Below the pieces are notes generated by a model. It did not search any database, was not told the origin of the DNA, and saw nothing but the letters and a program-made list of their open reading frames with translations. A DNA stretch of 64,000 nt from Siderastrea radians (Eukaryota; Cnidaria; Anthozoa; Scleractinia; Rhizangiidae). Position 1 is the stretch's first letter. Each line of letters begins with the position of its first letter. The translations under genes were made by a program, and so were the position numbers. Shown in pieces: positions 2,675 to 46,031 of the stretch. The DNA lies in contig OZ024890.1 of assembly GCA_964017195.1 (NCBI GenBank), positions 68,563,376-68,627,375 on the forward strand. Direction: 5' to 3'.

Positions 2675-3478
2675 CTAGTTTGCCTCATCTTTGTCCGTTT
2701 GATCTTTCAACCACTCAAACATCCTGGCAGCTTTTACCTCAGTGCCATTACGGTATCCCGTCTCTGCTTTCTTCACATGCTTTCGCAAGGCATCTGCACG
2801 CCGGTCTTTTTTGTCGGAGATTTTGGAATCTTCAGCACAAAGCTTTGTCAGGTTTACAGATTCTCTGTCTTTATTTTTCTGTCGCAAGTTGTGGTTTTCT
2901 GGCTGAGTGATCTGTGGCGTTCTAGTGTTTGCTTTAAGGATGCCTCTGTGTAAAACTGAAACTTCCTCTGGCTCATTAGTCGTAACTGGAAGAGAGTATC
3001 TTCTGTTAAGATTGACTTGTGGTTTCCTCCTGATTTCGGGAAGTGCGGCTAATTTTGGATCTAGAGGCGACGAATGACTCTCTTCACTAAAGCACCTTAC
3101 CCGGGACCACGAGTTCCGCTTTCTTTGCGTGGAAGCAGTGAGATCGATGCCGGTTTGGGGGGCTCCATTCAGTGAAGGCAAGTAAGCTTTCTTTGTCTCC
3201 ACAATACAACTGTAAGGCATCTCAAATGTACGACCTTTTCCTGGCGGGTAGGACGTCATAAACAAGGGGTTAATTTTGGAGAGGTTCTTGAAATCGTCAG
3301 GCGCATCCTGAAGGGACGAGGGACATGGAACATGTATAGAATGTCTTCTGCCTCCTGGTAACTTTTGGCTGGATGAAATGAGTCCTAATTTCTCAAAGGA
3401 ATTACTCATTTCTGACAAGGCTCCTGGCAGGGAAGTAATGCGTCGCCTGCTTCTAAGGACCGTGTTCACCTCATCCAT
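2675..3478 (-). CDS. Gene A: uncharacterised basic Ser/Arg-rich protein, member of a local five-gene family
   Basis: A single open frame of 267 codons starting with ATG at 3478. No known domain is recognised; the protein is basic, rich in Ser, Arg, Pro and Lys, without signal peptide or membrane segment, and probably mostly disordered. Visible motifs: RRHSI (44-48); SLQDAPDDFKNLSKINPLF (55-73), which aligns to genes B and E; YLPSLNGA (99-106) and QRKRNSWSR (118-126), both shared with gene D; ALPEIRRK (145-152); RRYSLPV (159-165), which fits R-x-x-S-x-P and matches RTFSQPV in gene E; and a C-terminal helix-like block (231-261, KHVKKAETGY...FEWLKDQ) shared with genes C and E. The leader before the ATG (TGTCACAATGG) resembles the one before gene D. 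An upstream exon is possible because the frame stays open above the ATG behind a weak AG. Duplicated DNA flanks it on both sides. That it is a real gene is inferred from codon-level similarity to its paralogues; function unknown. Confidence 0.75.
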   Translation of the reverse strand: MDEVNTVLRSRRRITSLPGALSEMSNSFEKLGLISSSQKLPGGRRHSIHVPCPSSLQDAPDDFKNLSKINPLFMTSYPPGKGRTFEMPYSCIVETKKAYLPSLNGAPQTGIDLTASTQRKRNSWSRVRCFSEESHSSPLDPKLAALPEIRRKPQVNLNRRYSLPVTTNEPEEVSVLHRGILKANTRTPQITQPENHNLRQKNKDRESVNLTKLCAEDSKISDKKDRRADALRKHVKKAETGYRNGTEVKAARMFEWLKDQTDKDEAN

Positions 3479-4763
3479 TATGGCTGTTGTGTTGTTCCAT
3501 TGTGACAGCCCTATTCTTAAGACGTGTACGATGAATTTTCAAAAGGTGGCAAAGGAATGCATGAGTGAGAAGTGTGCACGCCCTCGGGCCATTTGTCATA
3601 AAATACGCATATTTCAAGTTGTTAATTCTGTATTAGTAGACATTGTGTCTCGGAAATAATGCAGTCAAAATGGCATCATGTCTCTTATCAAACATGACAT
3701 TAATCATTATATTCCCTTGGCAAGAAACTTGGGGCGAAGAGCATAAAACTAATCTATTGAGCTATTGTGTTTATCGTGGGAACTGTTAGTTAAATGTTGT
3801 GGATTAATGTTATTGGCTCAAGGATAGTACATTAACGTCTTTACATTTAATTAGAACTAGAAGTGCATTTTATCTTTCCATAACCATGACAGTGGCCAAA
3901 TGCACTCAAACTGGCCATAAAACTTTTTTCTTTTTAAAAGATTGAGGAAAAGCTCCTTTATCATACAGTGGTCACGTTTTTGGAGGTACCATAATAGTAG
4001 TTGTAACGAAAATCTCTGATAGCGTATGCCCTTTAGCTAATGCATGGGAATTTGAGTTACTTCCTAGACGTTTCGAAACTGAAAAAGATAAGAAACTTCA
4101 TTTTCTAAAATGTTTGAAACCAAATCAACATACTACAAAAGCACTTTTCGACAGCTTTCATTTGCATGGTACACTTTCATGTCATCATTTCAGCAAACAG
4201 GCACAGAAGTTGCCAGTGACGGATGAGTTGTTTTGTCTTCATTTGCCGGGGGGTAATTTAAATTGAATAGTCGCAATTGTTCTTAAGAACGTAAACTTTG
4301 ATTCTTGTCAGATAATTAGACTGCTGAAACACAATCAGTACAACAATACAATAATGCTAACTGTTATCAGTGTCGGTGAGTAGATGGTCTTTTTGGGGTC
4401 TTGGATTAGAAGCGTGCTTGCAACATCTGAAGAAATCAACATCATTTCTTTCCAATTCCGCGTTGATTTATTGAGGGATTTACAAAAGGGGAGCGAGAGG
4501 GTCACGACCTTTTTTTGTTTTCTGCCGACCCTCTCTTTATAAACAAGACGGAGCCTAGCAACGCAGAAATGTTGTAATTTAGCGAATTAAATTACTTGAC
4601 CGAGTTTCGGAGAACGTTGCAATTATTATCTCAATATGGTTTATACATATAGTTGTCGAATTTGTCTGCATTTACAGACACTGTCAATTGCATCGGTTTG
4701 GCAACGCGTTATAGGATCTTATAGGGCTCATTAAATTCCGCCCTCACGCAATTTGTTTTAATG

Positions 4764-5277
4764 CCCTTTCCCAACCCCTTTTTAACGTTTTTCTGTTGAT
4801 CAAACATACTGAGTGGTTTTATTATCTGGGGAAGTATTATTAATCATTAAACATCTTTAATTTTGCGCGTTTCCCTCTCCGAATGGGGTGATTATCTTTA
4901 AAGGCATTACTAGTATTATGCCAACAATTTAGAGAATGCTTTTCAGAAGTTATCTCCATGAAAATATTCTGACTAATCGCCAGAACCTTTAATGGCCATA
5001 AATTAAAGGATGAAAGTTTGGTTTAAGTTGGAAAGATCGAAATCTCATATAACGAGATGGCACAACACAAACCTGAAAAGCCCTTTCCCAACCCGTTTTA
5101 ACGTTTTTCTGTTGATCAGACATACTGAGTGGTTTTATTATCTGGGGAAGTATTATTAATCATTAAACATCTTTAATTTTGCGCGTTTCCCTCTCGGAAT
5201 GAGGTGATTATCTTTAAAAGCATTACTAGTGTTATGTCAACAATTTAGAGAATGCTTTTCAGAAGTTAACTGCATGA
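4764..5277. repeat. Near-identical about 200-bp repeat pair enclosing a third copy of the 1980-2600 unit
   Basis: Copies 4764-4972 and 5082-5277 share long identical stretches, for example CATACTGAGTGGTTTTATTA and GGGGAAGTATTATTAATC, with only scattered substitutions. Between them, 4990-5080 repeats the start of the unit seen at 1980 and 2276. The order is R-Q-R. The high identity suggests a fairly recent duplication. Confidence 0.85.
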
Positions 5278-5971
5278 AAACTAATACAAAACATAAGCGT
5301 GTTAAACCTTGAGGAAGTATTGTAAACATTGTTACCGCTCCTTGGTACCTATCCATTGTTTTCCTTTCCGAATGAGGGCGCTTGCGCTGTATACAGGAAT
5401 GCAGTATTTTAGGACTGTTTCAACTAAAAAGCACAACTTATCGTTTGGAAAAACGTCTAAGGAAAGACTAAATCGAATCTCGAAATCAGATCCAAGACAA
5501 AAGGCCTATGAGTGTATCTGAAAACTGTATCGTGATCTTTAAGAAAATGATAACAATAGAATAAATGGACACTCGACGCGAACAATTGGACAGTCAGCGA
5601 TTTTAAAAGATAAAAATGATATGCGCCTTCTATTGTTACACCATTGGTTTTCAGAACAATTGACTACTGATTAATTTAATCAAGCAATTCAGCCACTGTG
5701 TTGGATGTAGGCTTCGTTCACACAATGTGTTTTGTTAGGCATAACGCACCAAAGTACACAACTGCACAGATTCAAAAATACAATGGAGTTAATTAGGTTC
5801 CCCTTAAGGGTTTTCACACCTACTTTACAAACCATCAAAAAATAAATATATAATATTACAATAAGGGTGCAGATCTCACTGCGTTACAGGAACAATGACA
5901 TCAGCTGACATAAGCTTTCTTCTGAGAATCTTATGGTTAATTCTACATTAATTATATTCTGGTATCTTAAC

Positions 5972-6215
5972 TACCGTAATTTCTCAATTAAACGCCCCCG
6001 CCGTTTATTTCAAACTTGGCATGGTGCCTTCGTCTCTTTGAATAAGCAGTTAATTTGGGCCCGCCATTTTTTAAGAAAGGATTATTATTCGTTTTTCTTG
6101 GCAGCCGTGTATCTTGCCCTCGATCTAAGTTTATTATGCAACAAATAAACGTCAGTGAGGGGCTTATCTACAATTCCCTCATTTATACCCGGCGTTTAAT
6201 CGAGAAAATACGGTA
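5972..6215. mobile_element. MITE-like element, 244 bp, terminal inverted repeats
   Basis: It begins TACCGTAATTTCTCAATTAA and ends with the inverse, TTAATCGAGAAAATACGGTA, so the arms match over about 25-30 bases including the AAACGCC stretch. No transposase inside. Target-site duplication unclear. Confidence 0.75.
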
Positions 6216-6694
6216 AGTGGCAACCGTTTAGTTAATAAGACGGCAAACTTTTATTTTGATGTGTTTTTGGCCATAATCCACGGAATATAACGGTCGAAAA
6301 CGCTGATCATTTCCATGGAAAATAGATTGTTTTTAATCGTTTTCATTCATCCACCCTAATACGCTTTATACGTTTCACCTGCCGTCCCCGGCAGTTGTTA
6401 TCGTCCACATTAGAACGATTGAAAAAGCTGATCGTTTAAATGCAGCGTTTTTAAGATCTTTCTAGATGTATCCATGTGTTTCTTCCACTTTTGAAAGCGT
6501 ACATTTAATCACTTGATTTACGTCACGGCTAAAAAGAATAGATTATTGTAGAATTAGCCGTGGAAAAAATGTGTATCGAGCATTACAGCCATTCGTGACA
6601 GCACTAGCTGTCCGCTTCGGGTCAGTGAGAAACGGAGCTCATAAGCCAATACACGCTAAAAGCTTGATCACTCTGTTTATAAACATTCGTGTGG

Positions 6695-6702
6695 TTTATA
6701 AG
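6695..6702 (+). promoter_or_regulatory. Possible TATA box of gene B
   Basis: TTTATAAG lies 163 bases upstream of the gene B ATG, in the GC-richer stretch leading to the gene. A similar TTTATAAA occurs about 20 bases earlier. No experimental start is known, so this is only a plausible position. Confidence 0.3.
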
Positions 6703-6864
6703 TCGCGTGAGTGCAGTCAATGGTTACTGACACGGATCGGAATAAGCTGAGTTGTAAATTCCGTCTGCCCATCAGAGCGTTCTAAGTACACGTCAATTTC
6801 ATTTCGACCGACCGGTTGCTAACGTACACTTAATCCATTACTGCAAATATTGATTGGGCTGAAT

Positions 6865-7608
6865 ATGAGTTCTGGCGAAAGAAAGCGTTCGCTGACGAGC
6901 GAAATCGCGGATGTAACTATAAAGAAAAACGGATTCGAGGAACGACGGCTTCAAAGAAAACTTCAAGCACTTGACGAACTGTCGGTAAGACAACAAAAGA
7001 AGCGCAACGAAGAACAGCTGGAGTACGCTTTGTGCAACCTCTCTCTCGAAAACATGGACACCTTTAACGGATTAACGAGAAAGCTTCTAAGTTCAAATTT
7101 CCTTCCTCCGATTGATCGCAAAGCCAGAGAAGGGACTAGCAATGGAGAAAAACGTGGCGGAAATGACTTGCTAGTAGAGAGACTAAGGGGATCGAAGATG
7201 ATTAAAAAATATCTGGAAGGTAAGGGGCCACGGAAATTGACCAGATCTTTATCCGCTGATTCTGGGAAGATTTTACGCTCTGGAGAACCAAATCATGCAG
7301 CCGAACAAACAGAAAACAAGGCAGGTCCTTTTTCTGCTTTTGTTAAAATGCGTCCTCATCGTCAGAAAGTATCGTTCGCTGAAGTTGAAACTCGCGGCAG
7401 AAGTGAGAAGCAAATTGCTGGGAAGTTTTCCAAAGACAAGGCCACGGCTAGACGAGTAAAGAGTAACAGTGAGTCGTCGAGCTCAAAACATCAAACTCCG
7501 GTAGCAGGGCAAGATTTCGTTGGGGATGAACGGAAAATTCAACACCATTGTGTGGCTGATGCCATCGAATACAAACTCAAGATGCGAGAATTGTCACGTA
7601 AAACGTAA
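6865..7608 (+). CDS. Gene B: uncharacterised basic protein, member of the five-gene family
   Basis: Open frame of 247 codons from ATG 6865 to TAA 7606-7608. The open frame extends 5 codons upstream to a TTG, but the ATG is the natural start. The first about 60 residues are strongly helix-forming and charged (EERRLQRKLQALDEL...QQKKRNEEQLEY), a possible short coiled coil. Next comes SLENMDTFNGLTRKLLSSNF (60-79), followed directly by LPPIDRK, which matches NGLTRIISPVFLPS in gene E and the corresponding block of gene A. KLTRSLSADS (about 114-123) supplies an R-x-x-S site; the rest is Ser/Lys/Arg-rich and looks disordered. The end (AIEYKLKMREL) is not the KH(I/V)...WL..Q block of A, C and E. No signal peptide or membrane segment. 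Gene A is divergent, 3.4 kb to the left. Biochemical role unknown. Confidence 0.78.
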   Translation: MSSGERKRSLTSEIADVTIKKNGFEERRLQRKLQALDELSVRQQKKRNEEQLEYALCNLSLENMDTFNGLTRKLLSSNFLPPIDRKAREGTSNGEKRGGNDLLVERLRGSKMIKKYLEGKGPRKLTRSLSADSGKILRSGEPNHAAEQTENKAGPFSAFVKMRPHRQKVSFAEVETRGRSEKQIAGKFSKDKATARRVKSNSESSSSKHQTPVAGQDFVGDERKIQHHCVADAIEYKLKMRELSRKT

Positions 7609-7810
7609 TCAAGTTTAATTACTTTTTAAGAGTAAAAAATCGAGAATTGCAACAGAAGTAGGGTTGCACGGGAAAGTGTGATAAGAATTTTGCGCAACAA
7701 CTTTTCAGTTCGTCGAGCATGATGAATATTTGAACAAGCTCGTTTGTGAAACCCTTTCAGCATTAGGGATAATTGACCTTTAGATTCCACTACGAGTTCA
7801 CCCGGTTCGT

Positions 7811-8130
7811 TAGGCGAAATATCTGTTCGGAAGGCCTATATCGGCTGACATATTCGGATTTAATTGCAGTGAAAACTGGGTATTTATTTGGCGAAACACC
7901 ACCTCAGACTTTCGTAACAAGCTTTAAGGTGACTGATTGATTCCTATTATTTTCGGAGGGACATGTCTGCCGTTAAGAGTATAAAATAAGTTCAGCTAGC
8001 ATTTTCGGAGGGCTATCAGCAGTTCGGAAATTCGGTGGATTTGTTTCCTAAAATTTTCTGCGCCTAAATTTTAACGTGTGTTAACTTACACAAATATGCT
8101 TTATAAAAGCTCCGAAATAATCTAAGAAAG
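7811..8130 (-). repeat. Inverted copy of module Z, just downstream of gene B
   Basis: Read as reverse complement, this stretch matches about 25150-25500 and in part 25850-26165. Shared phrases include ATCTGTTCGGAAGGCCTA, CAGTGAAAACT and ACTTTCGTAACAAG in the same order. It starts 200 bases after the stop of gene B. Whether Z is a transposable element or part of an old gene-scale duplication is undecided. Confidence 0.7.
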
Positions 8131-8615
8131 TAGAAAATGATATTTTAAGTACATTTCCTCGTTGGGTGCCCCTGTGTTATTGCTGTGTTTTGGTGTCGGC
8201 ATAATTTCACTCTTGTCCAATGCGAGCTCACCTCGGTAGCTGATCGGATCGCTATTGTTAACTGGGCAGACTGCGGGTACTAAGACTCACAGTACCTTCT
8301 GTTTATGTAAACGCTGCATAACTTTTTGTTCATGTCTTTTTGAGCTTCAGCCATTCCGTTTTATGCACATCACCATAAAAACAGTTTGTGTAAACGAGGT
8401 ATAAAGTTTTCACTTCTTATCCCAGAATGAAAATCGCATCAGTATCAGGTAAACGCCTCCTCAGTTCATGCAGTCACTTCTTTCCCTTTCAGTCCCGTGT
8501 TAATCGGTCCTCAGTACGTATCTTTGACTGAGCCCCGAGAACACTGAATCGAAGTTTCAGTCGAGTTCTCTGACCCTGAAGAGAGAGAGCAAGTTTGACA
8601 GCGGAAATAATCCGA

Positions 8616-9480
8616 AACGTTCATTTGAGTGGTCACATTTTAAGATTTCCCAAACAAACTCAAACGTTAGAACCACCTTGTAGAGACTGATAAACAGTAC
8701 CGCAAGAAAAAGTGCGGCTCAATGGTTTTCATTTGAATGATCAACATAGGATTACATCATTCTACATTGATCATAGTTCGAATTACATGCACAGCATAAT
8801 AAACAGAACCATTTAAAAGTACTGCTCATTAGCTTTATACACATCAATGGCCACTTAGGATTTCTTAACGGACTGCAAAGTTAGAACTACCTCGTACACC
8901 ATAATACGAAAGAGCACAGGAAAGTGCTGCTCAGTAGCTTTCATTTGAATGGTCACACTTTAGGATTTCATCCACAGACTCAAAAGTTGGAATCACCTTG
9001 TACAGCATAATGAACAGCACCACAGGAAAGTACTGCTCAGTAGCTTTCATTTGAATGGTCACACTTTAGGATTTCATCCACAGACTCAAAAGTTGGAATC
9101 ACCTTGTACAGCATAATGAACAGCACCACAGGAAAGAACTGCTCAGTAGCTTTCATTTGAATGGTCACAGTTTAGGATTTCATCCACAGACTCAAAAGTT
9201 GGAATCACCTTGTACAGCATAATGAACAGCACCACAGGAAAGTGCTGCTCAGTAGCTTTCATTTGAATGGTCACAGTTTAGGATTTCATCCACAGACTCA
9301 AAAGTTGGAATCACCTTGTACAGCATAATGAACAGCACCACAGGAAAGTGCTGCTCAGTAGCTTTCATTTGAATGACCGATTTAGGATTTCACCCACATA
9401 CTTTAACAGAAAAGTACTACTCTCTTTAGAGTATCATTCATTTGAAAGGTCACACTTTAGGATTTCATCCACGGTCTCAG
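8616..9480. repeat. 106-bp tandem repeat (satellite or minisatellite), about 8 copies
   Basis: CCTTGTACAGCATAATGAAC recurs at 8996, 9102, 9208 and 9314, a period of exactly 106 bases. The central copies are almost identical; outer copies (from 8616, and after 9360) are diverged or shortened. Each unit contains AGCTTTCATTTGAATGGTCA and GATTTCATCCACAGACTC. Single relatives of the unit occur elsewhere, clearly at 15940-16005. Confidence 0.95.
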
Positions 9481-10942
9481 AAGTGAGAACAACATATAAC
9501 GTTATCTGATGTGTGTTCACGGAATTGAAAGTTTGAAAATAAGTGTGATTTTTTCCTTTAAATGAAGCTTACATTTAGGAAAGCTTAAATTTTGTATGTT
9601 TGGAAGCAGGGTGGCTAAATTTAGGCGTATGCATGAAATGAATGGTTCTTGCTGTGTAAGTCCTTTGGGTCAACAGTTTGCCACAATAATCGTTTTTGCG
9701 GTGTTGGGCATATTATGCGCGTGTCACGTTTCCTTTACCAACAGGAAAAATTAAAGTGTGTTTTCAAATTTTTGTGGCTTTTTTTGTGTTGACTTCCCAT
9801 AAGCGAGCCCTGGGTTGGTACCAGACCCTTCTCTCTCGCGCGCGGCCATACGCGACCTCCTAGTCGTGTATTTTCCTTCCTTCTCCTTTTTTTCGTCTTT
9901 CGCGGTTAAGCTGCTTGGTGATCAGTCTTCAGCCAAAGCCACTTCACACATCGGCACGATGAATAAACCTTTGGTGTTCAGGGAAGTTCGGTGAAGCTAC
10001 ACAAAATAGAAATAATGCTTGGTAATTTTTTCTTCGCGTGACATCAAAATTCTCTTCGCTTCAAAAACGCTGTTTTCTGAGACATGTTTTGATTACAAAA
10101 CAAGTGGTCTTTTAGGTTTGCTGTCAAAGCCGAAACGCAAAATAAGAAGAAAGAAAAAGAACTAGAAACCTTAATTGACTTCTGAACCCAGCCCCTGAAT
10201 TAACCAACAGAGATAAAGGATCTATTTTATGCTTACAGTATCACTACATGATCCAAAATTCATGTCATGAAAATAAAGGAAATCGTGACCAAAGACCGTG
10301 GAAATGTCTTGATGTTCAAGCAAATTCTCCCAACTAGTATTATGAGAATTAAAATATAGGGAGAAGATTGAGTAGAACATGCACGTTAATATTTGGGCAT
10401 TAAAGGTTAAAACATTTTAGGCTAATCCTGTATGCAGTTTATCGCTGGCAAGACTATACACTCCTTGATGTTGTGTTTCCAAAGGTTTGTGATGCATTGT
10501 AGTCAGGGACACGGCAAGAAGCTAATATAAAAAGGCTTTGTTGTACTGTTCTATCACTGCCCAAGAATAAATCTGACTAAACACACACATACTTGCTTGG
10601 ATACAATTAACGAGGGTATTAATTCTTAGTTCTTCATTCTGGGATTGTGTTTTTGTGTTTTCTGATTTTTTGACCAATGAGGTCTACAATCAAACCAATC
10701 ATCAAACAGGAAAATAAAGACAATTTACAGTAGCTTGTTATGCGGTTTTCTGAAAGCGTTATCTATTTTTGTTTAGATTTGTCTTTGTTTTTGTTTTAAT
10801 TTCTTTGTGTCATCGTAAATGGACCGGAGCCTGGAATAAAGGAGACACAAAAAATAACAATCAAACCAGCAAAAACAAATTCATGAACCACAATTGCACA
10901 AGGAATATAAACAAATATCAACTTTTATACCTGGGCCAGACT
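9481..10942. other. Intergenic, nothing recognised
   Basis: AT-rich sequence without a supportable gene or clear repeat. The ORF at 10769-10957 starts at TTG in a T-rich low-complexity tract and runs into the next element, so it is not accepted. Confidence 0.55.
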
Positions 10943-11080
10943 GGGCAAGTTGCGTAAAACTTACATTATTTAACGTCCGGCATAACTGGTAACGTCAGAC
11001 GTTAAAATAGTGACCTTGACTGGAGTGAACGTCTGGACGTTAGAAGTTAAGCCGGACGTGAAGTTTTATGCAACTCGCCC
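10943..11080. mobile_element. Small MITE-like element, 138 bp
   Basis: It begins GGGCAAGTTGCGTAAAACTT and ends with the inverse, AAGTTTTATGCAACTCGCCC. Inside, TTAACGTCCGGC pairs with GCCGGACGT near the other end. No coding capacity. Target duplication not resolved. Confidence 0.75.
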
Positions 11081-11190
11081 CTGGCCTGCCTAATCTATGA
11101 AAACCTATGATGAGAAATCATGCAGTTATTCATAAGAAGTGACAATTGGCCAATGTCGGCTCAGACTCGATTGGCATCGGCCAATATCGG

Positions 11191-17690: not shown

Positions 17691-17699
17691 TACACCATT

Positions 17700-20137: not shown

Positions 20138-20143
20138 TTTATT
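20138..20143 (-). terminator. Candidate polyadenylation signal of gene C
   Basis: TTTATT on the + strand reads AATAAA on the minus strand, about 180 bases after the stop codon of gene C, a plausible 3' UTR length. Confidence 0.4.
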
Positions 20144-20321: not shown

Positions 20322-20875
20322 TTAAACTCCCTTTCTGGAGATATTCTGCTCACTTAACCACCTTAATAAACTGTCGCGTTTATTTTCGCCTGCCCGATAT
20401 TCGCCCTCCTGTTGTTCGATGTGTCGTTTCAGCAATCTCTTGCGATCGGTATCACGCAGCATTGCAAACGTTCTTGATTTGATATCATTATTATTTCTTG
20501 GAAGTTCCTTTACTGGTTTCGGGTCATTCGTATGCAGACGTTCTTGATTAAGGCCAAAATTTGCTGACAAATCGCGATGTAATTTTGGAAGTTGCAGCAG
20601 AGTCCTTTCATGTTGAGCTTCAATTTCTCGTCGACTCTTCAGTTCGATCATTTGTGCAGCAATAAGATTTCCCTCTGATCGCGATCGCAGGTTAAGTATT
20701 GGAGTGTTCAGATGTCTTGATGGTAAAGGACTGCTCTTGCTTCCCTCACCACGAAAATAATCCTGCCTGTTCGCATGGCCAAATTCATCGTTTTGTACCA
20801 CCTCGCCTCTTGTCGGTTTAAGTTTCATTTCCTCCCTTTGCATAACGTTTGTCTTGTGTAGTTGCCCAAGTTGCT
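20322..20875 (-). CDS. Gene C: uncharacterised basic protein, last coding exon, member of the five-gene family
   Basis: The frame ends at 20322. It is open up to 20900, but the minus strand has a good 3' splice site just above (CTCTCTTTTTTTACTTTAG, then AGCAACTT), so the exon probably starts at 20875 in phase 1. The first in-frame ATG is at 20843 (MQREEM, 173 codons), which would serve if the upstream exon is untranslated. Features, numbered from that Met: LPSRHLNTP and RSRSEGNL (about 40-59); a charged helical segment (about 65-82); QLPKLHRD (84-91), resembling RLPNLNKR of gene E; and the C-terminal block KRHIEQQEGEY...LLRWLSEQN (about 119-147 by offset; it ends seven residues before the stop), matching A and E. 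Gene E starts with the same intron phase and the same AG dinucleotide. Basic, probably largely disordered, with a helical tail. Function unknown. The nearest possible 5' exon is 23806-23945. Confidence 0.75.
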
Positions 20876-30195: not shown

Positions 30196-32164
30196 ATGAC
30201 AGACGACGATGATACAAAGTTCACTAAATTGTTCGTTGGAGGGATTCCTTACCACACAGAAGATGAAACAATGAAGCAGTACTTTCTGCAGTTTGATGAC
30301 ATTGTAGAAGCTGTGATCATCCGGGAGAGGAACAGTCAGCGATCCAAAGGATACGGATTTGTAAGATATTTTATTTCACTTTTGTAACGCAATTCGTTTA
30401 TCCTGTAGAATGGGAGACTAATGTAGCCGGTGCCAATTAGAATATGAAAACGAGTCTTAATGAAGGCTTTTTCTTACCGCTATGTGAGTTCCGGTCTTTC
30501 TCCTTTTCTGAGAAGAGACGTTGAGCTTCGGGCCCAGGGGAAGAAAAAAGGAACTCCAACTTTTGCAGTAGTGTGTTAAAAGAAAAATCACTGTATAGGA
30601 GCCAAGAGTGCTTGATCAACATTTCATCAGTTCACCACAAATCGACGAGGTGAACGTAACAAACCGTAACGACCAGTTATCAACTACCAGTTGTCACTTT
30701 CTAGAGGACTGTAGTGGTTGCCTTACAACCACTGAATTCCGCTAGCCTCGAGATTTGTTCTCTGGAAGCCCTCGGTTTCTGTGAATGCAAAGCTTAGATT
30801 TGTAAGCTTTCTTACTGTTATATTAAGCTTCCTATCAGCTTAGGTGAACTTTTTGCCGAAAAGATAAAGACACTACTCTGGAGAAAAATAACTTTTGAAA
30901 TCCACCACATCCAATCAAAATGCCAAACGTTGAATTTAAACGGGGAAGATATCATTTATCTGTAGATAGCATTTATCTTTGAAAGCGTTTACCTCTGGAT
31001 AGCATGTTTTTATAAGTTCAGGGTAAACTGAGAGCTGCATAATGACCTAAAAACGCTTATGCATTGCCGGCAACCGGACAATCCATCCTGCTTTGTTGCA
31101 CTGTACAAATAGGTACCGCTTCCAATGAATTAACCTGACAACATTTGGAGGATGAAGTAACCTTTGACGGTTAAGTGTCCCATCCGATAGGATGGGGGAC
31201 CGCTATCCTCTTGGGTACATTTTTTTACGTTGCATCGACGGGAGATAAGATTAGCAATGGCCTGGTTTGTCTCCATGATTCGCCCAATCCACTGCGTCTT
31301 TTGTCAGACCTGTTCTTTTAAATGTAGCATAAAGTTATCTGTTTGTTGTCTCATAAGGTTACCATGGCTACAAAGGAAGGGGCACAAAGAGCCATTGTGA
31401 ACAAGAGGCCAGTGATTGACGGACGGCGTGCCAATGTGGACCTGGCGTACATCGGGGCAAAGCCGAAGACCCCAAAAGAAGCCCCTCAGCAAGATGGCAC
31501 AGTCAGTCCAAAATGCTCCAGTGTGCCCTCCTCTCCGACGATTTCTGAACAGAGCTTCCACTCAGAGAGTGGGACAGAATGGGTTGCTGAGAAACAATAC
31601 ACTTCCTCAAGTTTTCATGGAAACGTCATGTACGGCTCAGTCCATCCAGCTCATGCAACATCGCCTCACGCCATGATGATGTCACCACTTGATGTGAAGC
31701 CTACGACTGTCAGCAGTATGCAAACCGTCAGCCCTAATCTGCCTCCAATGAGCACCATGGATTGCTACCAAAGAAACACCCAGTCTTATTCATCACCAGG
31801 CTGCAGCGCGATCTCAGTTGGCCCAAAATACCTGGACCATCAAAGAGCTGTCAATCTGGTGACCTATCTGCCCCATGGTTTTCCTGTGACAGCTACATCC
31901 GAAAGCCTTGCTCCCAATGCCGTACAATGTCAACCAGTGTTTACCCAATCTCCTCCTCATTCAACAAAGTCGATACCCAGTCCAGCGTACGTCTACGCTG
32001 TGCCTGTGTGGTACGTGGATCAAGGGAGGGTGTCCTGTGGTCAGATCAGCTTGGATCCCAACTATTTTCAAGCGCCTTTGACAACAGCTGGGATGAACGG
32101 AAACATCAACTGTGGCTTCCAAGCCAGTGGCAAACTGTACACTATGCCCGTCACTTACTGTTAA
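30196..32164 (+). CDS. RBM24/RBM38-like RNA-binding protein (two exons: 30196-30360, 31358-32164)
   Basis: One N-terminal RNA-recognition motif. RNP2 is LFVGGI (12-17) and RNP1 KGYGFVTM (51-58). GGIPYHT, the GRRANVDLAYIGAKP stretch at the end of the RRM and the overall spacing place it with vertebrate RBM24/RBM38 and nematode SUP-12, which bind GU-rich RNA and act in splicing, mRNA stability and translation. Exon 1 is 55 codons from ATG 30196; donor GTAAGA at 30361, acceptor ...GTCTCATAAG ending at 31357, phase 0, splitting RNP1 between Phe55 and Val56. Exon 2 encodes 268 residues, 323 in total, against roughly 240 for the human proteins. The extra length is a Ser/Pro/His/Tyr-rich, low-complexity tail ending YTMPVTYC. 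The frame at 30190 begins with TTG, so the ATG at 30196 is preferred. Family assignment is confident; the choice between RBM24 and RBM38 is not made because the gene may predate their split. Confidence 0.94.
30470..30840 (+). repeat. Part of module Z inside the RBM24-like intron
   Basis: Matches the second half of the Z copy at about 25510-25850: AGAGACGTTGAG, CAACTTTTGCAGT-like, ACAACCACTGAA.TCCGCTAGC, GAAGCCCTCGGTTTCTG and GAATGCAAAGCTTAGATT recur in order. It occupies a third of the 997-bp intron (30361-31357). Confidence 0.75.
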
Positions 32165-36410: not shown

Positions 36411-36418
36411 TGACGTCA
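36411..36418. promoter_or_regulatory. Palindromic CRE-like site upstream of gene D
   Basis: TGACGTCA, the full CREB/ATF palindrome, lies 180 bases before the gene D ATG, with a half site (TGACG) about 12 bases further on. Such octamers also occur by chance; promoter function is inferred from position only. Confidence 0.3.
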
Positions 36419-36597
36419 AATTTGTGACGTTGATCAAGAAGGCATATTTCCTGTTTTATTGTTTAAATGCGCTCAGAACACTTAAACAAGGCCCCGCAAA
36501 CGATTGTTTGAGAGAATTGCACAAGTTTAAAACCACGACGAAATGTCACTTTTAGTTTGTATTGTCACAGTGTTGTAAAACCGTCACAGAACTTGAA

Positions 36598-37194
36598 ATG
36601 AATGAAGTTAAACGAAGAGCTACAACCAGATTCTTCGAGCAAGAAATCTGGAACAACCTCTCTAAACAGAATTCTTTCCAAGACCGCCTACTGGATCTGA
36701 AATGTCACAAGCTTGGCAAGGATGAAGACATTGCTGTAAGAGCGTGGGATTCGGAGAAATTGCTCATGTTAAGGAGAAACAAAAAGCTTCGAGAACTGAT
36801 CAATTCTGCTGAGGCTTGTAAAAGAAGGGATCACGACAAAAGCAGGTGCCACAGCCAACTGGCGTCAAGTCATCACCTTCCAACATTAGTACGGCGCGAT
36901 CGACCGTCAACAACTGGTCAGATGAGTTATTTGGGGTTACCGTCAAGTTTATCCGTCGATCGCCGGTCCCGCTCGCACTCAGACCTCACGACAGACTCGG
37001 TCATGAAACACACAGGGCAAGAGGACATATATTTGCCTGCAGTGTCTGGCGCTGGAAAAGCTCGTCGAAGCTCACACTCGGCTTCCTCGAGAAATACCAG
37101 CTTATCAGATAGCGAAATAAACAAACAAAGGACTAGAAAATCATGGACTAGGCCAGCGATTCAACTGCATCGACGGGATGACATTGATTTGTGA
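36598..37194 (+). CDS. Gene D: uncharacterised basic Ser/Arg-rich protein, member of the five-gene family
   Basis: 198 codons from ATG 36598 to TGA 37192-37194. The frame is open 12 codons further up to a TTG (LSQCCKTVTELE), and the DNA there (TGTCACAGTGT) resembles the leader of gene A (TGTCACAATGG); both proteins then begin M(N/D)EV. An AG just upstream (TTGTCACAG) could be a weak 3' splice site. The N-terminal half is charged and helix-rich with many Lys/Arg. Then come HLPTLVRR (93-100), RSRSHSDL (123-130), YLPAVSGA (145-152; YLPSLNGA in A) and QRTRKSWTR (177-185; QRKRNSWSR in A). It lacks the C-terminal KH(I/V)...WL..Q block, ending instead QLHRRDDIDL. No signal peptide or membrane segment. 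A and D look closest in their middle parts. Function unknown. Confidence 0.75.
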   Translation: MNEVKRRATTRFFEQEIWNNLSKQNSFQDRLLDLKCHKLGKDEDIAVRAWDSEKLLMLRRNKKLRELINSAEACKRRDHDKSRCHSQLASSHHLPTLVRRDRPSTTGQMSYLGLPSSLSVDRRSRSHSDLTTDSVMKHTGQEDIYLPAVSGAGKARRSSHSASSRNTSLSDSEINKQRTRKSWTRPAIQLHRRDDIDL

Positions 37195-39629
37195 TGCTAG
37201 CTAGCAAAGAAGTTTTGAAAATCGCTGCCAATGTTCGATTACCCATTACTCAGAGTGGTTCAAGGGTGCCAAGCCCATGTACTGAAGAAATTTAACAACT
37301 GGTATGGAAACGGTCGTGATCTTACAAGGGTAGATATGCCATGCAATCAGGCACACTTTTTAAAAGTGACTGTGTAAACACGGTACAGGTGTAGAAGGAA
37401 AAAACCCTGAAACCTGCAATCTGCTCATGTTGAAAAGCAGACTTTAAAATACAAGAGTACTGTAGTACTATAAAAGAACTTCAGTTAATTGAGAGTACAA
37501 TATTGATCACGCATCTTACGAGTTTGACAAGCTTCAATGAACATTCAAAACCGATAAAACCCAAATTGCCGTAGCATAAGTAAAATATACGGTAAAATAT
37601 TTCGTTGTTGAGCTCCTGGCCCCAGTTGTTCATCCGGTGGATAGCGCTATCCAACGTTTGAACAACTGGGGCCTGGTGTCGTTCATAGAATTTTAAGACC
37701 TCAGTCACGGCTTCGCGATGGCAAAGAGCCGTCAGTAAGTTTTAAAAAGACGTTAGCTGATGAAGCGTATAGAAAACAACATCAGTTTTATCTACTTGTA
37801 TTTCCATTTATAAATTTACTCATGGTTATTTATTTGATTCAAAATAACAAATTTCAATATATGGACGTGGTGGACGAAGTTTAGTGTTACTGTAAATAAC
37901 TATCCAATGCAAAAAATATATATATGTTACATTTATAAGTCATTAAACGGTTCGTCGAGTCAGAAAAGCCTATTGCCGTGTTCTAACATGTTCGCTGTAC
38001 CATTGTCCCTCAGGGTGTCACGGTTGCCTGTGTTCTCTCATGTGCTCTCTATAGGCTTCGCCGTTCTCTGAACGGCATTCATCAGAAAGTTCGAACCAGG
38101 GGATATACCCCTGGAACTGGGGAGTACGATGCCTGCAGAAGGGTTTCCATCATTTGCAAATGTCAAGTTCTGAAACTGCAGCCCTTTCAGTGTATAGAGG
38201 CAATTTGGTATACTCAACAATAGTTGTCTTTGTTAGCGTATTTCAATTTATGTGTTGCTTATACACCAATTCCAGTTCATTCTCGCTTTTATGAAGTATC
38301 TTTCTTAACCTTTTAAGCCCTGATGTAAAAATGCATATTCTCCTTGCAGTTCTCCATACATTTCTTATGGAATTTGTCTAAAGATCAAGACATCTTATCC
38401 TTGGTGATCACTTTCTTTATTCTCATCACTTGAATATTTGAACAAGTAGTGATAAAACGTAAAGAGAAATTTCATTTTCGTCACTGTTAGGGGTTAACAG
38501 GATAAGCCCTAACAGTGTATTTAGATAAATTGCCTTTGGAAGCATAAACGTACTCTTCCTCGATTGAATACGAGACCTTAACTCTAGCAGCAATTCATTT
38601 GGAAATTTTACCTTAATTTTATTTGGCCCGGTTCTTCATTTCGCTTTATAACTGTATAAGTCCCATTCCGTAATTTCACGGTAACTTATTTAAAACGCCG
38701 CTCCAAAGGTTTATGTTATCTGAAATGGCACAGCGTGAAAATCAAAGGAAAGTTCACTTTCCAAGGACGTTCACTCTCCAGAGAGGGCATTACAAAACTC
38801 GGCTGGTAAAAATTCTAAAATATGCTTGAGAAACAAACAGTACCACAGGGACTCAGAAGATAGAACCATCTTATAAAGCTATGAATGGAATATACCATGC
38901 CATGTTAGAGATTTGACTAAGAAAGCATTAAAAAGAGTACTTCGCCGACTACCGTTTTTGATATTTTGAAGAAAGAAAATGGGTATATGTTGAAACACCA
39001 ATGATAAACAAAAACTGAGGACTAACCAAATAACTTCCTTCACCTTCACCTATCCACTTCGTGCCGTGTGGCACATAAGGCCTAACGAAGTAATTAAAAA
39101 AGTCTCAAAATATTCTTTCTTCTTCATTTGTTTCAAAGAGTAAACTTGTTATATCTAGTTGTCTAATTTTTCCTTACTTTCTTTTTTGCTTTAATTTCAA
39201 TAATAGCAATAATAATAATAATCTTTCCGATTCAGGATGTATAACTGGCCCGCCAACTTCAACAAAGAGAAATTTCAAATAAAGTTGAAAGTTGATAAGT
39301 TGTATTGTTTGCTTGTTTGTATGCCTTTTTCACTGTGCAATATTTCGCTGCAGATTTTCAACACAAAACTAACTAAAAGTTAATTCCTGCTCGAATTTGT
39401 GCAGAGAACAAAATTATTTGTTATTCAAGCTGTTATGAGCAATTTTTCTATAATTAATTGTTTTTCCTGAATCAACTAAACTAACGATGACGCCTAATTG
39501 AAATTCAGCCATTTGTTTGGACCAGTGGGTAATCGACCTCGCTGGATGGATTAAATTTAACGTTCTCTTATCCCTTGGTTAGTATTAATCGTCCTTTCAG
39601 GGATAGAATCTAACCAAAGGATAAATTTA
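37195..39629. other. Intergenic between D and E, first part
   Basis: Holds the palindrome at 37618-37673. Otherwise AT-rich sequence with no supported gene; the ORF at 38038-38220 has no recognisable feature. Confidence 0.5.
37618..37673. repeat. Palindrome, 56 bp
   Basis: GGCCCCAGTTGTTCA pairs with TGAACAACTGGGGCC around GGATAGCGCTATCC, itself a perfect palindrome. The compact form suggests the tip or remnant of a MITE family; only one copy lies in this window. Confidence 0.8.
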
Positions 39630-39846
39630 GGCTATGTTTACACTAGACCGGACCGGACCAGATCGGCTTCCCTTTGCATGGAACCGTTTGGAACCACTCC
39701 CGAGGAGTTTACGTTCTGGAACTGGCCCGGAACGGATCCAAAACTGGACCTGCAAAACAGCACATCGCTCCCGTGTAAACAGAAGGCCTATCCGGTCCAA
39801 TTTTCGGACCGGGTCCATTTGGAGCCGGTCCCGTGTAAACATAGCC
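39630..39846. mobile_element. MITE, 217 bp, terminal inverted repeats GGCTATGTTTACAC
   Basis: Starts GGCTATGTTTACACTAGACC and ends with the inverse form GGTCCCGTGTAAACATAGCC. The interior is rich in CCGG/GGACC-type repeats. The flanks are TTTA (left) and TTAA (right), compatible with a mutated TTAA target duplication. The ORFs in it on both strands are by-products of its symmetry. Confidence 0.9.
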
Positions 39847-42800
39847 TTAATCTTCAGGGTCTGGTGAAAGTGAAAATAATTTACTGCAAACCATGTCATT
39901 GCGTATTAAAAGTGAATTAAAAATTGACCCTAATCTGGGCTTAACGAACAACCGGGCCCAGTGAGAGAGAATTAACCCTCGATTAGCGCTAATCGGCTTT
40001 CTAGGAACTGGCGCCTGAGGGAAATATGGGGGGAGACAGCTCCCGCCATTTGATGCTGGGGAACTTAACTCGACATCTTTCTGGGAGGAAACGGAATTCC
40101 GTCATCAGTTCCTGGCTGATACAGGATCTGCAACAAGTAAAACCCCGGACCTCGCACAGGACTTGACTTCAATCGAGCTCGGTTGCCCAGGTACAAAAAC
40201 TGACCACTTTTCTGTTGATGAGAGGTCAATACGCGATGATTACAACAGGACCCGGAAGAAGTGAATTGGGGTGAGCCACTGGGAGAGGAGTTAACGTTGG
40301 CGACTGGGAAATGGGAAAATTTTCTACTGGGCATTTAAGAAAACTTAGAATTGGGAAATGAGATTTTGAACGAAATATCGAGCTGGGAAATGGGATTTAT
40401 ACCCTCCCTCCCCCGCCCCTTAAGACCCTCTTACAAGAACACTCAGTTGTACTAACAGTTGCTCAATGGCACCATTCTACTGAAGTAAACACATAAGGAA
40501 AGCTGAATAGACAACCAGCTTGGCTTGTACAATAATTGCATCAGTTAAGTGTAGAGATCCTACAGAAAATTTTCAAAGTATTCTCTTATTGAAAGAAAAC
40601 TATTCATGCAATTAAAGGGCCAGCTTTGGAGAGCAAGTTTCTTTTCTCTCAGGTTTTCATTCGCCTTGAAGATTATGCAGATTCCTCAAGGAAAACGGCC
40701 AGGAAGCACGCACGAAAATTTATTGAATTTTATCTTTCGGTTTGCACGGAGACGTTGCAGGTGCTTGAAAAAAGCTTGTAACTTTGTTTCCACGACATTT
40801 ACATAAATGCAGGTGCCTGACGAAGCACATTCAGGAAATTTTCAAGGGCTACTGAAATAAATTACCGAGGTTAAGTTTGTGTAAGATGTCTCAGTACGTT
40901 TGGTCTGAAAATCAGTAAGGATCTCTTTGAACCATTTTTGCACGACTGGCCTCATTTGCATGCCCGTGTTGGGCTAAGACCGAGGGAGGAGGGCTATAGT
41001 AAAATCTCAAGCATCTATGCTATTATTGGCTCCCGAGAGTCATTTTGCATTTTATTGCTTTCTTGGTATCTCAAGCTAAATGGATGACTGCAAACTCCAC
41101 CGTGCAATTGTTGTGTGGAGTTGGGGTTGAAAGCCACTCTTTCTGCATTGCCTTTTCATACGGCTGATAAGCCCTAACAAGGGCAGAACAGCTACAGTCA
41201 ACGCTGCCTAAGCCCGGGTAATAAGCTGTGTACATGCGTGAATCGCCTCTAGTTCGTGCATGTGCCATCGTGTCTGCAGTGTTTTTACTTAATATTAGAT
41301 TCAAGCTGAAGCCTCACTGCACGTTTTAAGACTGATTCACATCAGAGTGCTAATTCACAGCAAATTAATTTTTTAACATGGAATGCTAATTTTTTTCATT
41401 TCCGGTCAGTGAATTGTGAATCTAGGTACTCAACAAGAGAAGGCAAATCAAACATCTCACTCACCGGATTGTTTGTATTTTATGATTAAACGTGCTGTAA
41501 AACCCGTCACCTGGCATGACTCCCAAACCCTTTTGTGCATGAATAACTATGTTTTGTCAACAAAATTTTACAGCTGAATAATAATTTTATGAAGCATGGT
41601 GGTCTAGTTGTACTAAAAACTGCCATACACTGAATAATCATTGATAATTGTGAGCTGAAATGTCTCATTCAGGCGTTTTGAGAAGTGTACCCCCGGTGAA
41701 CAAACTCTCCGTAAGGGGGATGGTAGAAAGTTGGAGAGGCAACTTTTTTCCACTGCCACGAAGAACAACACTGTTCTAACCATTCTGGGGCATTTTCGAG
41801 ACGCCGAAGAAATGTTGACAAGAAACCTTAAAAATGCTTTCTGACTAAACGTAAATCTGGTCTGAAAAATTACACAGTGACACTTTGAACACACAAATTG
41901 AACAAAAAGTGAAGTTCTCAGTTATGACATAAAGTTCGGTCATCTGAAAATTTCACTATCTCACCAGACAGGAATTCATTCCTTTGGGTTATAAAACTCT
42001 TAAGTTTTCAGTGGACAGTTTGAAATATCTTGTGTCTTTCTCAGCTATCAGTTACACCTCCTTCAGACACTTCACATTTAACACCACCTTCACTAAACTG
42101 ATTATGCTATTGAGTGCAAAAATGCGGACAATTTTTTCCGATCCTATGGTCTGATGCTCCGACGCCCACCTCTAAGATTATTATGGAACAATTTCAGTTA
42201 AATAAAGACTAGTTACGGTCACTCAGTTATTTTATGTATTATTCTTAACGTCATGTTAGATCTTACACTCGTTTCACGCACAAAAAAAGGACTTTTAGCC
42301 ATGCACCGTTCGTTCCACGTTCACAGTGGCCCGAGAAAAATGTTGAAAATGGCTACTATCTGAAGGACCAGACACACGTCGTGCCAAATAATCAGTTGAG
42401 AGATCTTCTGAACTTATGTCACAACACTTGAGAATACTAGTCAGTGCTTGTTATGTCACTTCTTGGGATTTGAGTCTGATGGATGAAAGTCGACTGAAAG
42501 AGTAAGCGGTTCCTGAGCTACTGCTTGCAATCTATGGTGCTGCCTTTACTTCATTTTTCTGAAGTTTCTTTTGCAAAGTTGCAAATTGAGTTACAAAGTT
42601 AAAATTTTTATAACATTTTTATCGTATTCTGGGTTTGTTACTTTTTAAGATCAGAGATCATTAGATCATTGTTTATCTCCTTGAAACAATTTCAAATTTC
42701 CGGACAGAAAAGCTTGCATGTTGCAAGCCTTTAGTTTCTGCGATCGATAGAGTAATTAAAATGAAGCCTTAAAAGCTTGAACTTTGGTCTTAACTCACAA

Positions 42801-43204
42801 GTTATGATAACAGGCACTTATCACTATCTCTTTATCGAAAGAATTTTGTTACATTTTGAACAGTACTTCAATTTTATGGATCAGTCAGTAGCCTCTTATT
42901 TGTCTTCGTCATTTGGTGTCGTGAAATGAGGTTTCATCGTTTGACAGTCAGTGGATGAAAAATATGCATATGAAGTGTTTTGCTTATACTAAATGTTCCC
43001 GGTACTGCTAGCTAGTTTGCAGGCATTCATGCCACTCAAATGCAAACATGACAAGTAACTGAGGTCGAATTTCAGAAAAAAAAAAAAATTCCCATCTGGC
43101 AAGAAGACATTACCAAACCGACGTTTCTGTAAGTCCCTCGTTTCCTTACAAGAGATCTATAACATTTATGAAATCCTGATAATTTGCATCATATAGTAGA
43201 ATGT
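39847..43204. other. Intergenic, nothing coding recognised
   Basis: Near 40295-40400 the phrase CTGGGAAATGGGA recurs irregularly (cryptic simple repeat). ORFs at 40065-40334, 40606-40806, 41071-41304 and 41613-41894 show no domain, paralogue or splice context. Confidence 0.5.
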
Positions 43205-43361
43205 GCATACATACATACATACATACATACATACATACATACATACATACATACATACATACATACATACATACATACATACATACATACATACATACAT
43301 ACATACATACATACATACATACATACATACATACATACATACATACATACACACATACATA
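43205..43361. repeat. (CATA)n microsatellite, about 39 units
   Basis: Uninterrupted CATA/TACA tetranucleotide repeat with one ACAC interruption near its right end. It gives long artificial reading frames (Met-Tyr-Val-Cys or Tyr-Ile-His-Thr repeats) on both strands, which are not genes. Confidence 0.98.
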
Positions 43362-45366
43362 AATTTTATTTTTTCTCGAATTTGGGAGTAGCTACAAAGC
43401 TAATATTTCCGAGAAAAGAACAAAAAACAATACACTATAAAAATAAACACAAAATATCAAATATATCAAAAGAGTTATATATAAAATTTGCAAAGTTTAC
43501 ATTCTATTTGTATAATATATATATTTAGGTCTGCATGTTAAGGTTAGTTAAAGTTATCTTAAAGTCAGCAAGAGTTTATCTCCACTCTCTCTTTTCAGAC
43601 AGACGAATTGTCATGTGACACTTGGAACTAAAAGGTTTTTAAGAACTATTTTGTGCCAGTTTCTGTGATGTCAGTTAGATGGGGGAATTCTTCACAGAAA
43701 AATTAATGTCTCGATAATGCGTTTCCTAAGTCAACGTTTCGTCTGGAACAAGTCATCGTAGAGTTAACGCCTTGTAAGACCATATGAACTAAATAAACAA
43801 TCCATCAGGGTACAGCTTTATCCTAAACAGAATTTTTTGATTACGTGGCTATGCAAGAGTCGTTCCTAACACCGGTGAGGAAAATTCAACACCAGTTATC
43901 AGTATACGTGCCGTGAAAATACTTTTCCCAAGGTTATGGTGACTGGAGAGGTTTAACTAAATAATAGATAGAAATTTATTCCGCATTGAATAGGTAGTCT
44001 CTTTTCTTTCCATTTTGTGGTTTGTGTTCTGTCCGCCTTTACACAACCATCGGAAAACCACAGAAAACAAACAAACAATCTTGTCCGGAAGAAAATTTGT
44101 TATTGTAAAAAAAAAAGGATGTCTTAAGATAAAATATGTCTTTGTCTTGCTTAAAAAGCACAGGTTTCTGCGATCAAAAGAAATCTGTGGAAACGTGACT
44201 ATTCCTGAAGCAGTACTTATGTTCAAGTATCTACAGAGTTGAGTATGCGTAAATGACTTTGTCAATGTTATTTGATTTCAAGGGTAATTTGGACAAAAAG
44301 CCGTCTGCTGTTTATTTAGTTGAAATTGATGTCAAGTCGCCCGACAAAGCATGCATCAAATCACTACAAACAAGCTTTTACTCCGACCAGTTTCACATCA
44401 CGGCTATTTAGTAAAATTTAATTCTTCAACAAAAGAGAAAATATTGCACAGCATGCTATATTAACCAGATATTTAAAAGCCTATTGTGAAAAAGACAATT
44501 AAGATACTCTTTGTTTTTAATAAAATTGAGCAGCTATGTTCAACGTATTAGTTTAAGGGGAAAATGGATATGGGTACTTGTTAAAGCTTCAGCAAAAATT
44601 TAGTGTAAAATTGATTGAGCACTGATGAAAATTGCAATCATCCGTCATTCAGCGACTTGATTACTACATCCTTTCTTTCTGAGGTTCAAGATGTAACCTT
44701 GGTAACTTTACCGTCTATTGTAAAAAGCTTGATGTCAATTGAAAAAGTCTGTTGCTAAAACAAACTCAAACTTTGATAGAAACGCCTAGATAACTAAGCC
44801 ACCCAGTCGTGACAAAGGTTCTCACGCACAGGGAACAGAATTAAGCATGACTGGGCATCGCGCGTGCAGCGATACACGCGCTCACAGTCATACCATGCTT
44901 GCGTGTAACTAAATACAAACTAAAGATTATTTCCTCAAAGAAAAAAAGCAGCTTCGACATTAGGATGTGATGACTTCCTAAACTACTGAAAATAAAAGCT
45001 TACACGGAAGGCGATTTGACATTAATATAGCTTAAGGGATCACGTTTTTTGTGATTATGGAACTTTATTTGACAATGTGTGTGTTGGGGCATAAACCTTT
45101 ATTCTCTCTTAAAGAAAAGAATTAGTAAATTGTAGCAGGGATAAAGCCATTGCGGCGTTCCTTTCTTTCCGCTTCAGTGTTAATGGAACAATTGGTTAAC
45201 CACCCCTCCGCCACTGAACCTTATCATGAGACAGAAGAGATCACTGACACATGCCTTTGTCAACACCGGTAATTGTTTGTATAATTCATCCCTTCATCCC
45301 GTGACCTATGATTCATATAGACACAAGCCCTCATTTAACATCTATCACTTACCTCTGCCTTCACAG
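43362..45366. other. Intergenic upstream of gene E
   Basis: No supported gene. An imperfect GC-rich hairpin lies at about 44851-44905 (AAGCATGACTG against CAGTCATACCATGCTT, CGCGCGTG against CACGCG). Any first exon of gene E should lie here or further left; I could not identify it. Confidence 0.45.
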
Positions 45367-46031
45367 AGAACGCAACACTGCGTGATAAGCTGTTCGCGGT
45401 GAGTGCAGAAGTACTGTTATCAAACATAAACATCATGAGGAATCCTCGGTCGGTAACACCGGCTCCACTTTCTTTACAATACGAAGCTGTTTGCCCAGAT
45501 GGGTCGTCTTCAAGAAGATTTAGTTTGGTATCTCAGCATTTACCTTCATTGCCTGAGGGATCACCAGACTTAAACGGGCTGACAAGGATTATATCACCGG
45601 TCTTTTTGCCATCCGAAGTAGGAAAAAGTGAGATTGTAGAACTTGTAGGGTCACCTTCCAATACTAGACGAGGGCAACTGGTAAAATCAGGGCTGGAAAG
45701 GAGAAGAAAGTCTGAAGAGACGGCCAGGCTTCCAAACTTAAACAAAAGAGAGACATTCAAAGAGAATGTTCAGCCTAGCAGTCCAAAGTCAAACCTTCGA
45801 CTACGAAAACACAATCAACTGACAAGAACTTTTTCGCAGCCAGTCATCTCTACGTCTGAAAGTTTTCCAAGAATTAACAATTGGGATTCACTCCCACGAA
45901 CACACTCGCTTGACGAAGATCATTCGGCTGAAATTAGAAGGCATATTCAGAAAGAGGACATGGAGTATGATCTATTCTCGACCAAGGCGGTCATCTTAGA
46001 ACACTATTTGAACAGTCAAAACGTTGCTTAA
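45367..46031 (+). CDS. Gene E: uncharacterised basic Ser/Arg-rich protein, last coding exon, member of the five-gene family
   Basis: Probable exon from 45367, after a good 3' splice site (TTACCTCTGCCTTCACAG), in phase 1, to TAA 46029-46031. The first in-frame ATG is at 45435 (MRNPRSV, 198 codons), usable if the upstream exon is non-coding. From that Met: RRFSL (27-31); SLPEGSPDLNGLTRIISPVF then LPS (38-60), matching A and B; a charged stretch (about 80-97); RLPNLNKR (98-105); LTRTFSQPV (119-127), matching NRRYSLPV of A and fitting R-x-x-S-x-P; and the C-terminal block IRRHIQKEDMEY...LEHYLNSQN (167-195), matching A and C, where Tyr replaces Trp. Same exon phase and same AG start as gene C. Basic, disordered-looking, with a helical tail. 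It shares the most blocks with A, the best evidence that these are real paralogues. Function unknown. Confidence 0.78.

Follow-up and report, generated by a model that had tools for sequence, protein, structure and literature searches.

Are the five long open reading frames (ORFs) found in a 64,000-nucleotide stretch of the genome of the stony coral Siderastrea radians (GenBank assembly GCA_964017195.1, contig OZ024890.1, positions 68,563,376 to 68,627,375) genuine genes, and if so, do they belong to a single family? An earlier note on this whole stretch, hereafter the window (G000:C4:68563376-68627375), proposed that the ORFs, designated A to E, form a locally expanded family of small basic proteins joined by short shared blocks. 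We followed up this proposal with sequence and profile comparisons, the own-genome searches taking in the 805-Mb assembly. The reading that we favour, with a probability of about 0.55, is that A to E are genuine genes, each with a single exon, belonging to a cluster whose probably disordered proteins diverge fast and which stony corals have kept together, that they make up two groups, and that their products would act as adaptors carrying an LPx[LI] motif. The cluster is apparently undescribed.

All five genes consist of a single-exon ORF. Gene A (2675..3478, minus strand) encodes a basic protein of 267 amino acids (aa) with a C-terminal WL tail, gene B (6865..7608, plus strand) one of 247 aa, gene C (20322..20843, minus strand) one of 173 aa, and genes D (36598..37194, plus strand) and E (45435..46031, plus strand) one of 198 aa each. 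The frames given previously are exact for A, B and D, running from the first ATG of the frame to the stop, but the far ends assigned to C and E (20875 and 45367) are out of frame, the first ATGs being at 20843 and 45435, respectively. Since the open frame of E starts as early as 45339 and P0001, a nearly identical relative, begins slightly before 45435, the latter position is a candidate start. The isoelectric point (pI) is 9.6-10.2 and the content of serine, arginine and lysine 27-33% in all five proteins, in agreement with their description as basic and Ser/Arg/Lys-rich.

Queries B and D yielded 102 matches in the protein searches, every one of them with E ≤ 2.1e-17 and with identities of 44-96%. 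Another 17 matches were obtained with A, C and E, and by best match they are distributed as 11 for C (37-96% identity), five for A and one for E. Those of A include the near relatives P0002 (97%) and P0007 (93%) as well as P0004 and P0006, which are counterparts of additional A copies upstream of the window, while the single relative of E is P0001 (98.5%). Two ORFs located downstream, F and G (see below), have 35 (46-95%) and three (42-98%) relatives. Such searches detect a protein only if it has exact words in common with the query, and distant relatives may therefore escape. Five matches are named, and all five are from stony corals: Pocillopora damicornis (pdam_00015126, P0085) and Desmophyllum pertusum (OS493_027233, P0118) for D, Oculina patagonica for B, and Acropora millepora (LOC114948459) and A. 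digitifera for F. Desmophyllum and Oculina belong to the suborder Vacatina and Acropora to Refertina; since both are represented, and B, D and F occur together on contigs, the matches suggest that the cluster spans the two suborders.

At least two different families were located on 10 of the 22 contigs longer than 100 kb that bear a match, where the identity of a contig was inferred from equal length, contigs of identical length were treated as one, only the longest contig of each cluster was tabulated, and the contigs need not all come from different species. B, C, D and F are all present on contig 1758886, and F is in this way conserved in synteny with B, C and D. Three families are combined on contigs 686095 and 2171498 (B, C, D), 931285 (C, D, F), and 698402 and 835838 (B, D, F), and two on contigs 753765 (B, C), 589725 and 2228105 (both B, D). 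The remaining contig, 1285536, holds two A copies together with G and comes from either the same or a closely allied species. The earlier expectation of conserved frames with relatives is hence borne out clearly for B, C and D, in stony corals and often with several families on one contig. Judging from this conservation, A to E are very probably real genes, and B, C, D and F have very probably been retained in stony corals.

The question of a single family has a more divided answer. In single-sequence local alignments of the ten A-E pairs against 1000 shuffles, C-E (p < 0.001) and A-C (p = 0.005) clearly beat the shuffled sequences, and B-D (p = 0.039) and A-E (p = 0.057) came next, but the other six of the ten pairs gave p ≥ 0.099. 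Profile-profile comparison with column-shuffled profiles (n/150 being the shuffles that score as well, uncorrected for the number of pairs) separated C-A, C-E, B-D, B-J and D-J with 0/150 each, J being a further ORF on another chromosome. A-E (94/150), C-B (44/150), C-D (47/150) and E-D (28/150) were indistinguishable from shuffles, so the possibility that C shares its ancestry with B or D, which we considered, is unsupported. Because both C-A and C-E are separated, the A-C-E block proposed earlier is real, and A and E are linked via C. The B-D link was absent from the earlier list of pairs. Of the two other blocks on that list, A-B-E (NGLTR..S..FLP) remains suggestive (A-B 9/150; E-B 2/150, and 10/300 in the reverse direction B-E) and A-D (QR.R.SW.R) weak (8/150). 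A profile of C with ten relatives, run over 4904 ORFs from the surrounding 194 kb, ranked gene E and then A copies and pieces directly after C (E values from 2e-4 to 0.016, the next ORF having 2). The D profile gave a weaker ranking over the same ORFs, with a piece of a B copy (0.17) and B (0.88) following D. The five genes thus fall into two groups, A/C/E and B/D, each of them homologous within itself, but joined to one another by one motif and not proven to be one family.

Conservation is limited to motifs and short helices with no known domain, as the earlier note had it, and each group possesses a helix of its own. A, C and E have in common a C-terminal helix with a PHI-x-x-[WY]-L tail. 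In A it comprises residues 227-262 (2693..2800, minus strand; MFEWLKDQ), which match residues 134-168 of C by profile (0/150). The module of C (20340..20444, minus strand) carries the tail LLRWLSEQN, with W162, L163 and Q166 invariant in 11 sequences, and that of E (residues 164-195; 45924..46019, plus strand) has Y in place of W. E resembles C along a stretch of about 100 residues. The PHI-x-x-WL tail was found in 11/11 aligned C sequences, 6/6 aligned A sequences, 35/35 F matches and 3/3 G matches. B and D have instead an N-terminal helix, N-x-[FY]-[EQ]-[DE]-R-x-L, which is present in J too. The module covers residues 10-89 of B (6892..7131, plus strand; KKNGFEERRL ... FLPPI; B-D and B-J 0/150) and residues 13-103 of D (36634..36906, plus strand), homologous to B by profile comparison. 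By eye alone, the C-terminus of B seemed to resemble the A/C/E helix in H-EY, and this likeness was dropped. AlphaFold models of C (helices only at 121-151 and 153-170; mean predicted local distance difference test score, pLDDT, 57.6) and of B (helices at 13-21, 23-58 and 64-76, plus 100-106, 111-118 and 230-246; mean pLDDT 61.0) place the confident helices mainly within the shared modules. From such low-confidence models, the A-E proteins are predicted to be probably disordered.

The motif that joins the two groups is LPx[LI], which occurs in all five proteins (7 sites versus 0.8 expected, p = 2e-5), although this form, like the PHI-x-x-WL form, was defined after seeing A to E. The hydrophobic-LP-x-hydrophobic pattern claimed for all five is present literally in three only. 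The sites are LPEI in A (3032..3043, minus strand; a second site, LPSL, at 3170-3181), LPPI in B (7102..7113, plus strand; invariant among 30 aligned sequences), LPKL in C (20580..20591, minus strand; L, P and L invariant), LPTL in D (36877..36888, plus strand; L and P invariant, final L 95%) and LPSL in E (45540..45551, plus strand; a second site, LPNL, at 45729-45740). Across the orthologs of C, B, D and F, the L, P and L/I positions show a conservation of 0.95-1.0; LPx[LIV] is found in 102/102 B/D matches, LPx[LI] in 11/11 C matches and LPPL in 35/35 F matches. Among unrelated ORFs of the region taken as a control, 7 of 44 (82 before repeats were collapsed) have LPx[LI], with 9 sites versus 5.8 expected. 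The motif is conserved in nearly all cluster proteins. The ORFs beyond A to E were picked by eye and were unused in the motif definitions: the tail drew attention to F, G and H, resemblance to B to J, and length and position beside J to K, L and M.

R-x-x-S, reported earlier in all five proteins, is indeed present in each of them (22 sites versus 12.5 expected), and in nine proteins 40 sites were counted versus 22 expected. Single invariant serine sites are C S56, B S130, D S26 and S126, and F S100 and S196, and the invariant basophilic sites read RSRSEG (C), RSLSAD (B), RSRSHS (D) and RKTNSLP (F).

The cluster extends beyond the window on both sides. Just upstream of A lie four further A copies or fragments, namely copies at C4 68550017 and 68537151, a broken A at C4 68544858-68545665 and a fragment at C4 68549749, and among them a frame-broken copy of B (G000:C4:68542389-68543133). 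The local expansion claimed earlier is visible in these tandem copies, and an A+B segment was apparently duplicated upstream. The ratio of nonsynonymous to synonymous substitution rates (dN/dS, Nei-Gojobori) between the intact A copies is 0.55 for A1-A2 (p = 0.009), 0.56 for A2-A3 (p = 0.007) and 0.70 for A1-A3 (p = 0.14); for B versus the broken B pieces it is 1.27 and 0.80. Downstream, in window-based coordinates, the single-exon ORFs F (74266-75303, plus strand), G (109591-110484, minus strand) and H (116100-116786, minus strand) all end in PHI-x-x-W-L, like A and C. Of the 63 ORFs that span 150 aa or more counted from Met, 7 have this tail, versus 0.12 expected by shuffling; four of these seven, namely C and the A copies, defined the pattern, and many of the 63 are units of a tandem array. 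The long array itself, at about 93000-105400 (window-based), has overlapping open frames on both strands in each unit. In profile controls F gave 0/60 with J and with H, 1/60 with A (outside the tail), 2/60 with G, 5/60 with B, 23/60 with C, 31/60 with E and 40/60 with D, and B-G gave 39/60. An extra 40 kb downstream gave no profile match under E 0.5.

A second locus was recognized on C2, where a whole-genome search with B gave a weak match (E = 0.07) to J, a single-exon ORF of 262 aa. J scores 26.8 bits against the B profile, the maximum of 5000 shuffles being 13.9, and in the reciprocal whole-genome search B was the only other match (E = 0.057). By these similarities J is a dispersed B/D paralogue on another chromosome. 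No clear paralogue of C, D or E was detected elsewhere in the own genome by single-sequence search. Within 13 kb of J are three more single-exon ORFs, K (truncated at the border of the retrieved sequence), L and M (G000:C2:6174000-6182447), each possessing LPx[LI] (5 sites versus 0.39 expected). Profile comparison gave 0/60 for B-M, over 14 columns around FLPPL, 1/60 for F-M and 10/60 for D-M, and the pairs with K and L gave F-K 3/60, B-K 18/60, C-K 19/60, B-L 47/60 and C-L 52/60. The genes are therefore clustered, as the earlier note stated, but the set is larger than five and occupies more than one locus.

Comparison with known families returned no significant Pfam, NCBIfam or PDB match, which upholds the absence of a known domain. 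Pfam-A gave no E < 0.008 for A to E, F, G, H, J, K (truncated), L, M or the alignments of B, C and D; as single proteins A, B, C and E had no Pfam match and D had two, both below the cut-off. Nothing significant was found in NCBIfam. In sequence searches of PDB, the profiles of B and C had no match up to E 10, D had a best of 1.9 and F of 0.16, and as single sequences A had a best of 0.51 and L and M none up to E 1. The CCDC190 family (PF15768), which may be similar in having an N-terminal helix followed by LP motifs, gave nothing over the cut-off in a whole-genome search (best E 1.23, elsewhere) and no match at B, D or J. EB1 SxIP ligands have a [ST]-x-[IL]-P core, and this core was seen in only one of 18 LPx[LI] sites (F 125). 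CCDC190 and the EB1 ligands were both rejected as candidates. A Bearded-type motif is NxANE-like; written as N[AEST]AN[ED], it occurs in 0/102 B/D matches, and weak matches to the Pfam family ESM4 were seen in six of the 30 B sequences (best E 0.012; P0059 10.5 bits versus a cut-off of 27), with no match for window B. Despite the lack of a strong ESM4 match and of this motif, the Bearded (Brd) family of the Drosophila E(spl) complex, described as a cluster of rapidly evolving small proteins whose N-terminal part contains a basic amphipathic helix (PMC1310631), may serve as the nearest working analogy. A survey of coral 'dark' genes (Stephens et al. 2026) reports 244 conserved dark orthogroups, 16 of them for Scleractinia, with 11.4% of proteins unannotated (PMC13044578). 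Its dark families are similar to the present genes in being unannotated, lineage-restricted and subject to bursts of lineage-specific duplication, but the word 'disordered' is absent from the main text of the survey (PMC13044578). The PxLPxI/L ligands of ANKRA2/RFXANK, where phosphorylation in HDAC4 switches the ligand to 14-3-3, share the LPx[IL] core with the coral proteins (PMC12066720). Proline two residues before LPx[LI] was however present in 0/18 sites, and PxLPx[LI] in 1/157 relatives, and this candidate was rejected. A literature search with five identifiers from annotated relatives found no paper.

Under the favoured reading, the A-E proteins would be intracellular adaptors or regulators. 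The helix module may dock one folded partner and LPx[LI] a second partner shared among the proteins, and phosphorylation of the invariant basophilic serine sites, of which each protein has one or two, could switch binding, docking and switching being suggested by conservation. Several observations weigh against this reading. The relatives of A and E obtained in these searches are all close, and since P0004 and P0006 correspond to upstream A copies, few of the A relatives are independent. The upstream B copy is broken, and the A1-A3 dN/dS is not significantly below 1. Model confidence is low for both B and C. Conservation at the [RK]xxS serines is not higher than at the remaining serines (p = 0.39 for B, C, D and F combined; C 0.72, B 0.95, F 0.23). 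Furthermore, F, G and H have pI 5.4-7.5 and hence are not basic, and H has neither a relative in the protein search nor LPx[LI]. The tail alone also fails to join F, G and H to A or C (F-C 23/60, C-G 30/60, C-H 13/60, A-H 19/60), and because profiles leave them unlinked, the shared tail may be convergent. Finally, with A-E, C-B and C-D unseparated, one origin of all five genes is unproven.

The last point bears on the reading implied by the earlier note, in which A to E, and J as well, descend from one ancestral gene with a helix and LPx[LI] and have diverged past recognition. This is possible, though we think it somewhat unlikely: the E-B block, the A-B similarity in the LP region, the A-D block and the presence of LPx[LI] in all five argue for it, but C-B, C-D and E-D do not separate from shuffles, and the conserved helices are situated at opposite protein ends in the two groups. 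Resemblance through basic, Ser-rich composition between otherwise unrelated ORFs would fit the six pairs that do not beat their shuffles, but is at odds with the relatives, the shared contigs, the near-invariant motif and the 0/150 profile controls; it is already disfavoured and very improbable.

Two other alternatives concern what the proteins do, and both appear improbable to us. As structural proteins of cilia, microtubules or the cytoskeleton they might bind as extended strands with helical clips, which their basic, Ser-rich nature and short helices without a globular domain may be taken to indicate, but no good PDB chain match was found by sequence (profiles B, C, D and F; single A, L and M), and solved axonemes are included in the PDB sequence library. 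If they were kinase substrates or 14-3-3-binding proteins, the RxxS sites would be the main functional element. The excess of RxxS in the nine proteins points this way, as do the invariant C S56, B S130, D S126, and F S100 and S196 and the better conservation of [RK]xxS serines in D alone (p = 0.034), but the class as a whole is not preferentially conserved and [RK]xxSxP is present in only 5/9 proteins. The earlier suggestion of kinase substrates thus lacks general support, even if individual RxxS sites are invariant. The adaptor reading could in turn be widened to a coral class of single-exon disordered proteins with one LPx[LI]-x(0-2)-[RK] docking motif, arranged in at least two clusters (the C4 window and J/K/L/M on C2) and binding one shared folded partner as a lineage-specific adaptor system. 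Such an extension is tentative and rather unlikely.

A few other features were observed in the window. A gene of the RBM24/RBM38/SUP-12 type lies amid the cluster (30196-32164, plus strand), with an RRM exon (PF00076, 2.2e-10) and a last exon matching SUP-12 and RBM38. At the right end is a reverse transcriptase frame (58528-60558, minus strand; PF00078, 2.9e-40), and a frame at the left edge (3-458, plus strand) has a C-terminus resembling it, as judged by eye. A 106-bp tandem repeat with 7.4 copies is found at 8620-9402.

The A-E genes and their neighbours represent a concrete, conserved and clustered set of coral genes with defined motifs, whose function is testable rather than guessed. They illustrate how domain searches miss families whose sole constant is a short motif and a helix, and the profiles supplied here are meant for tracing such genes in other cnidarians.

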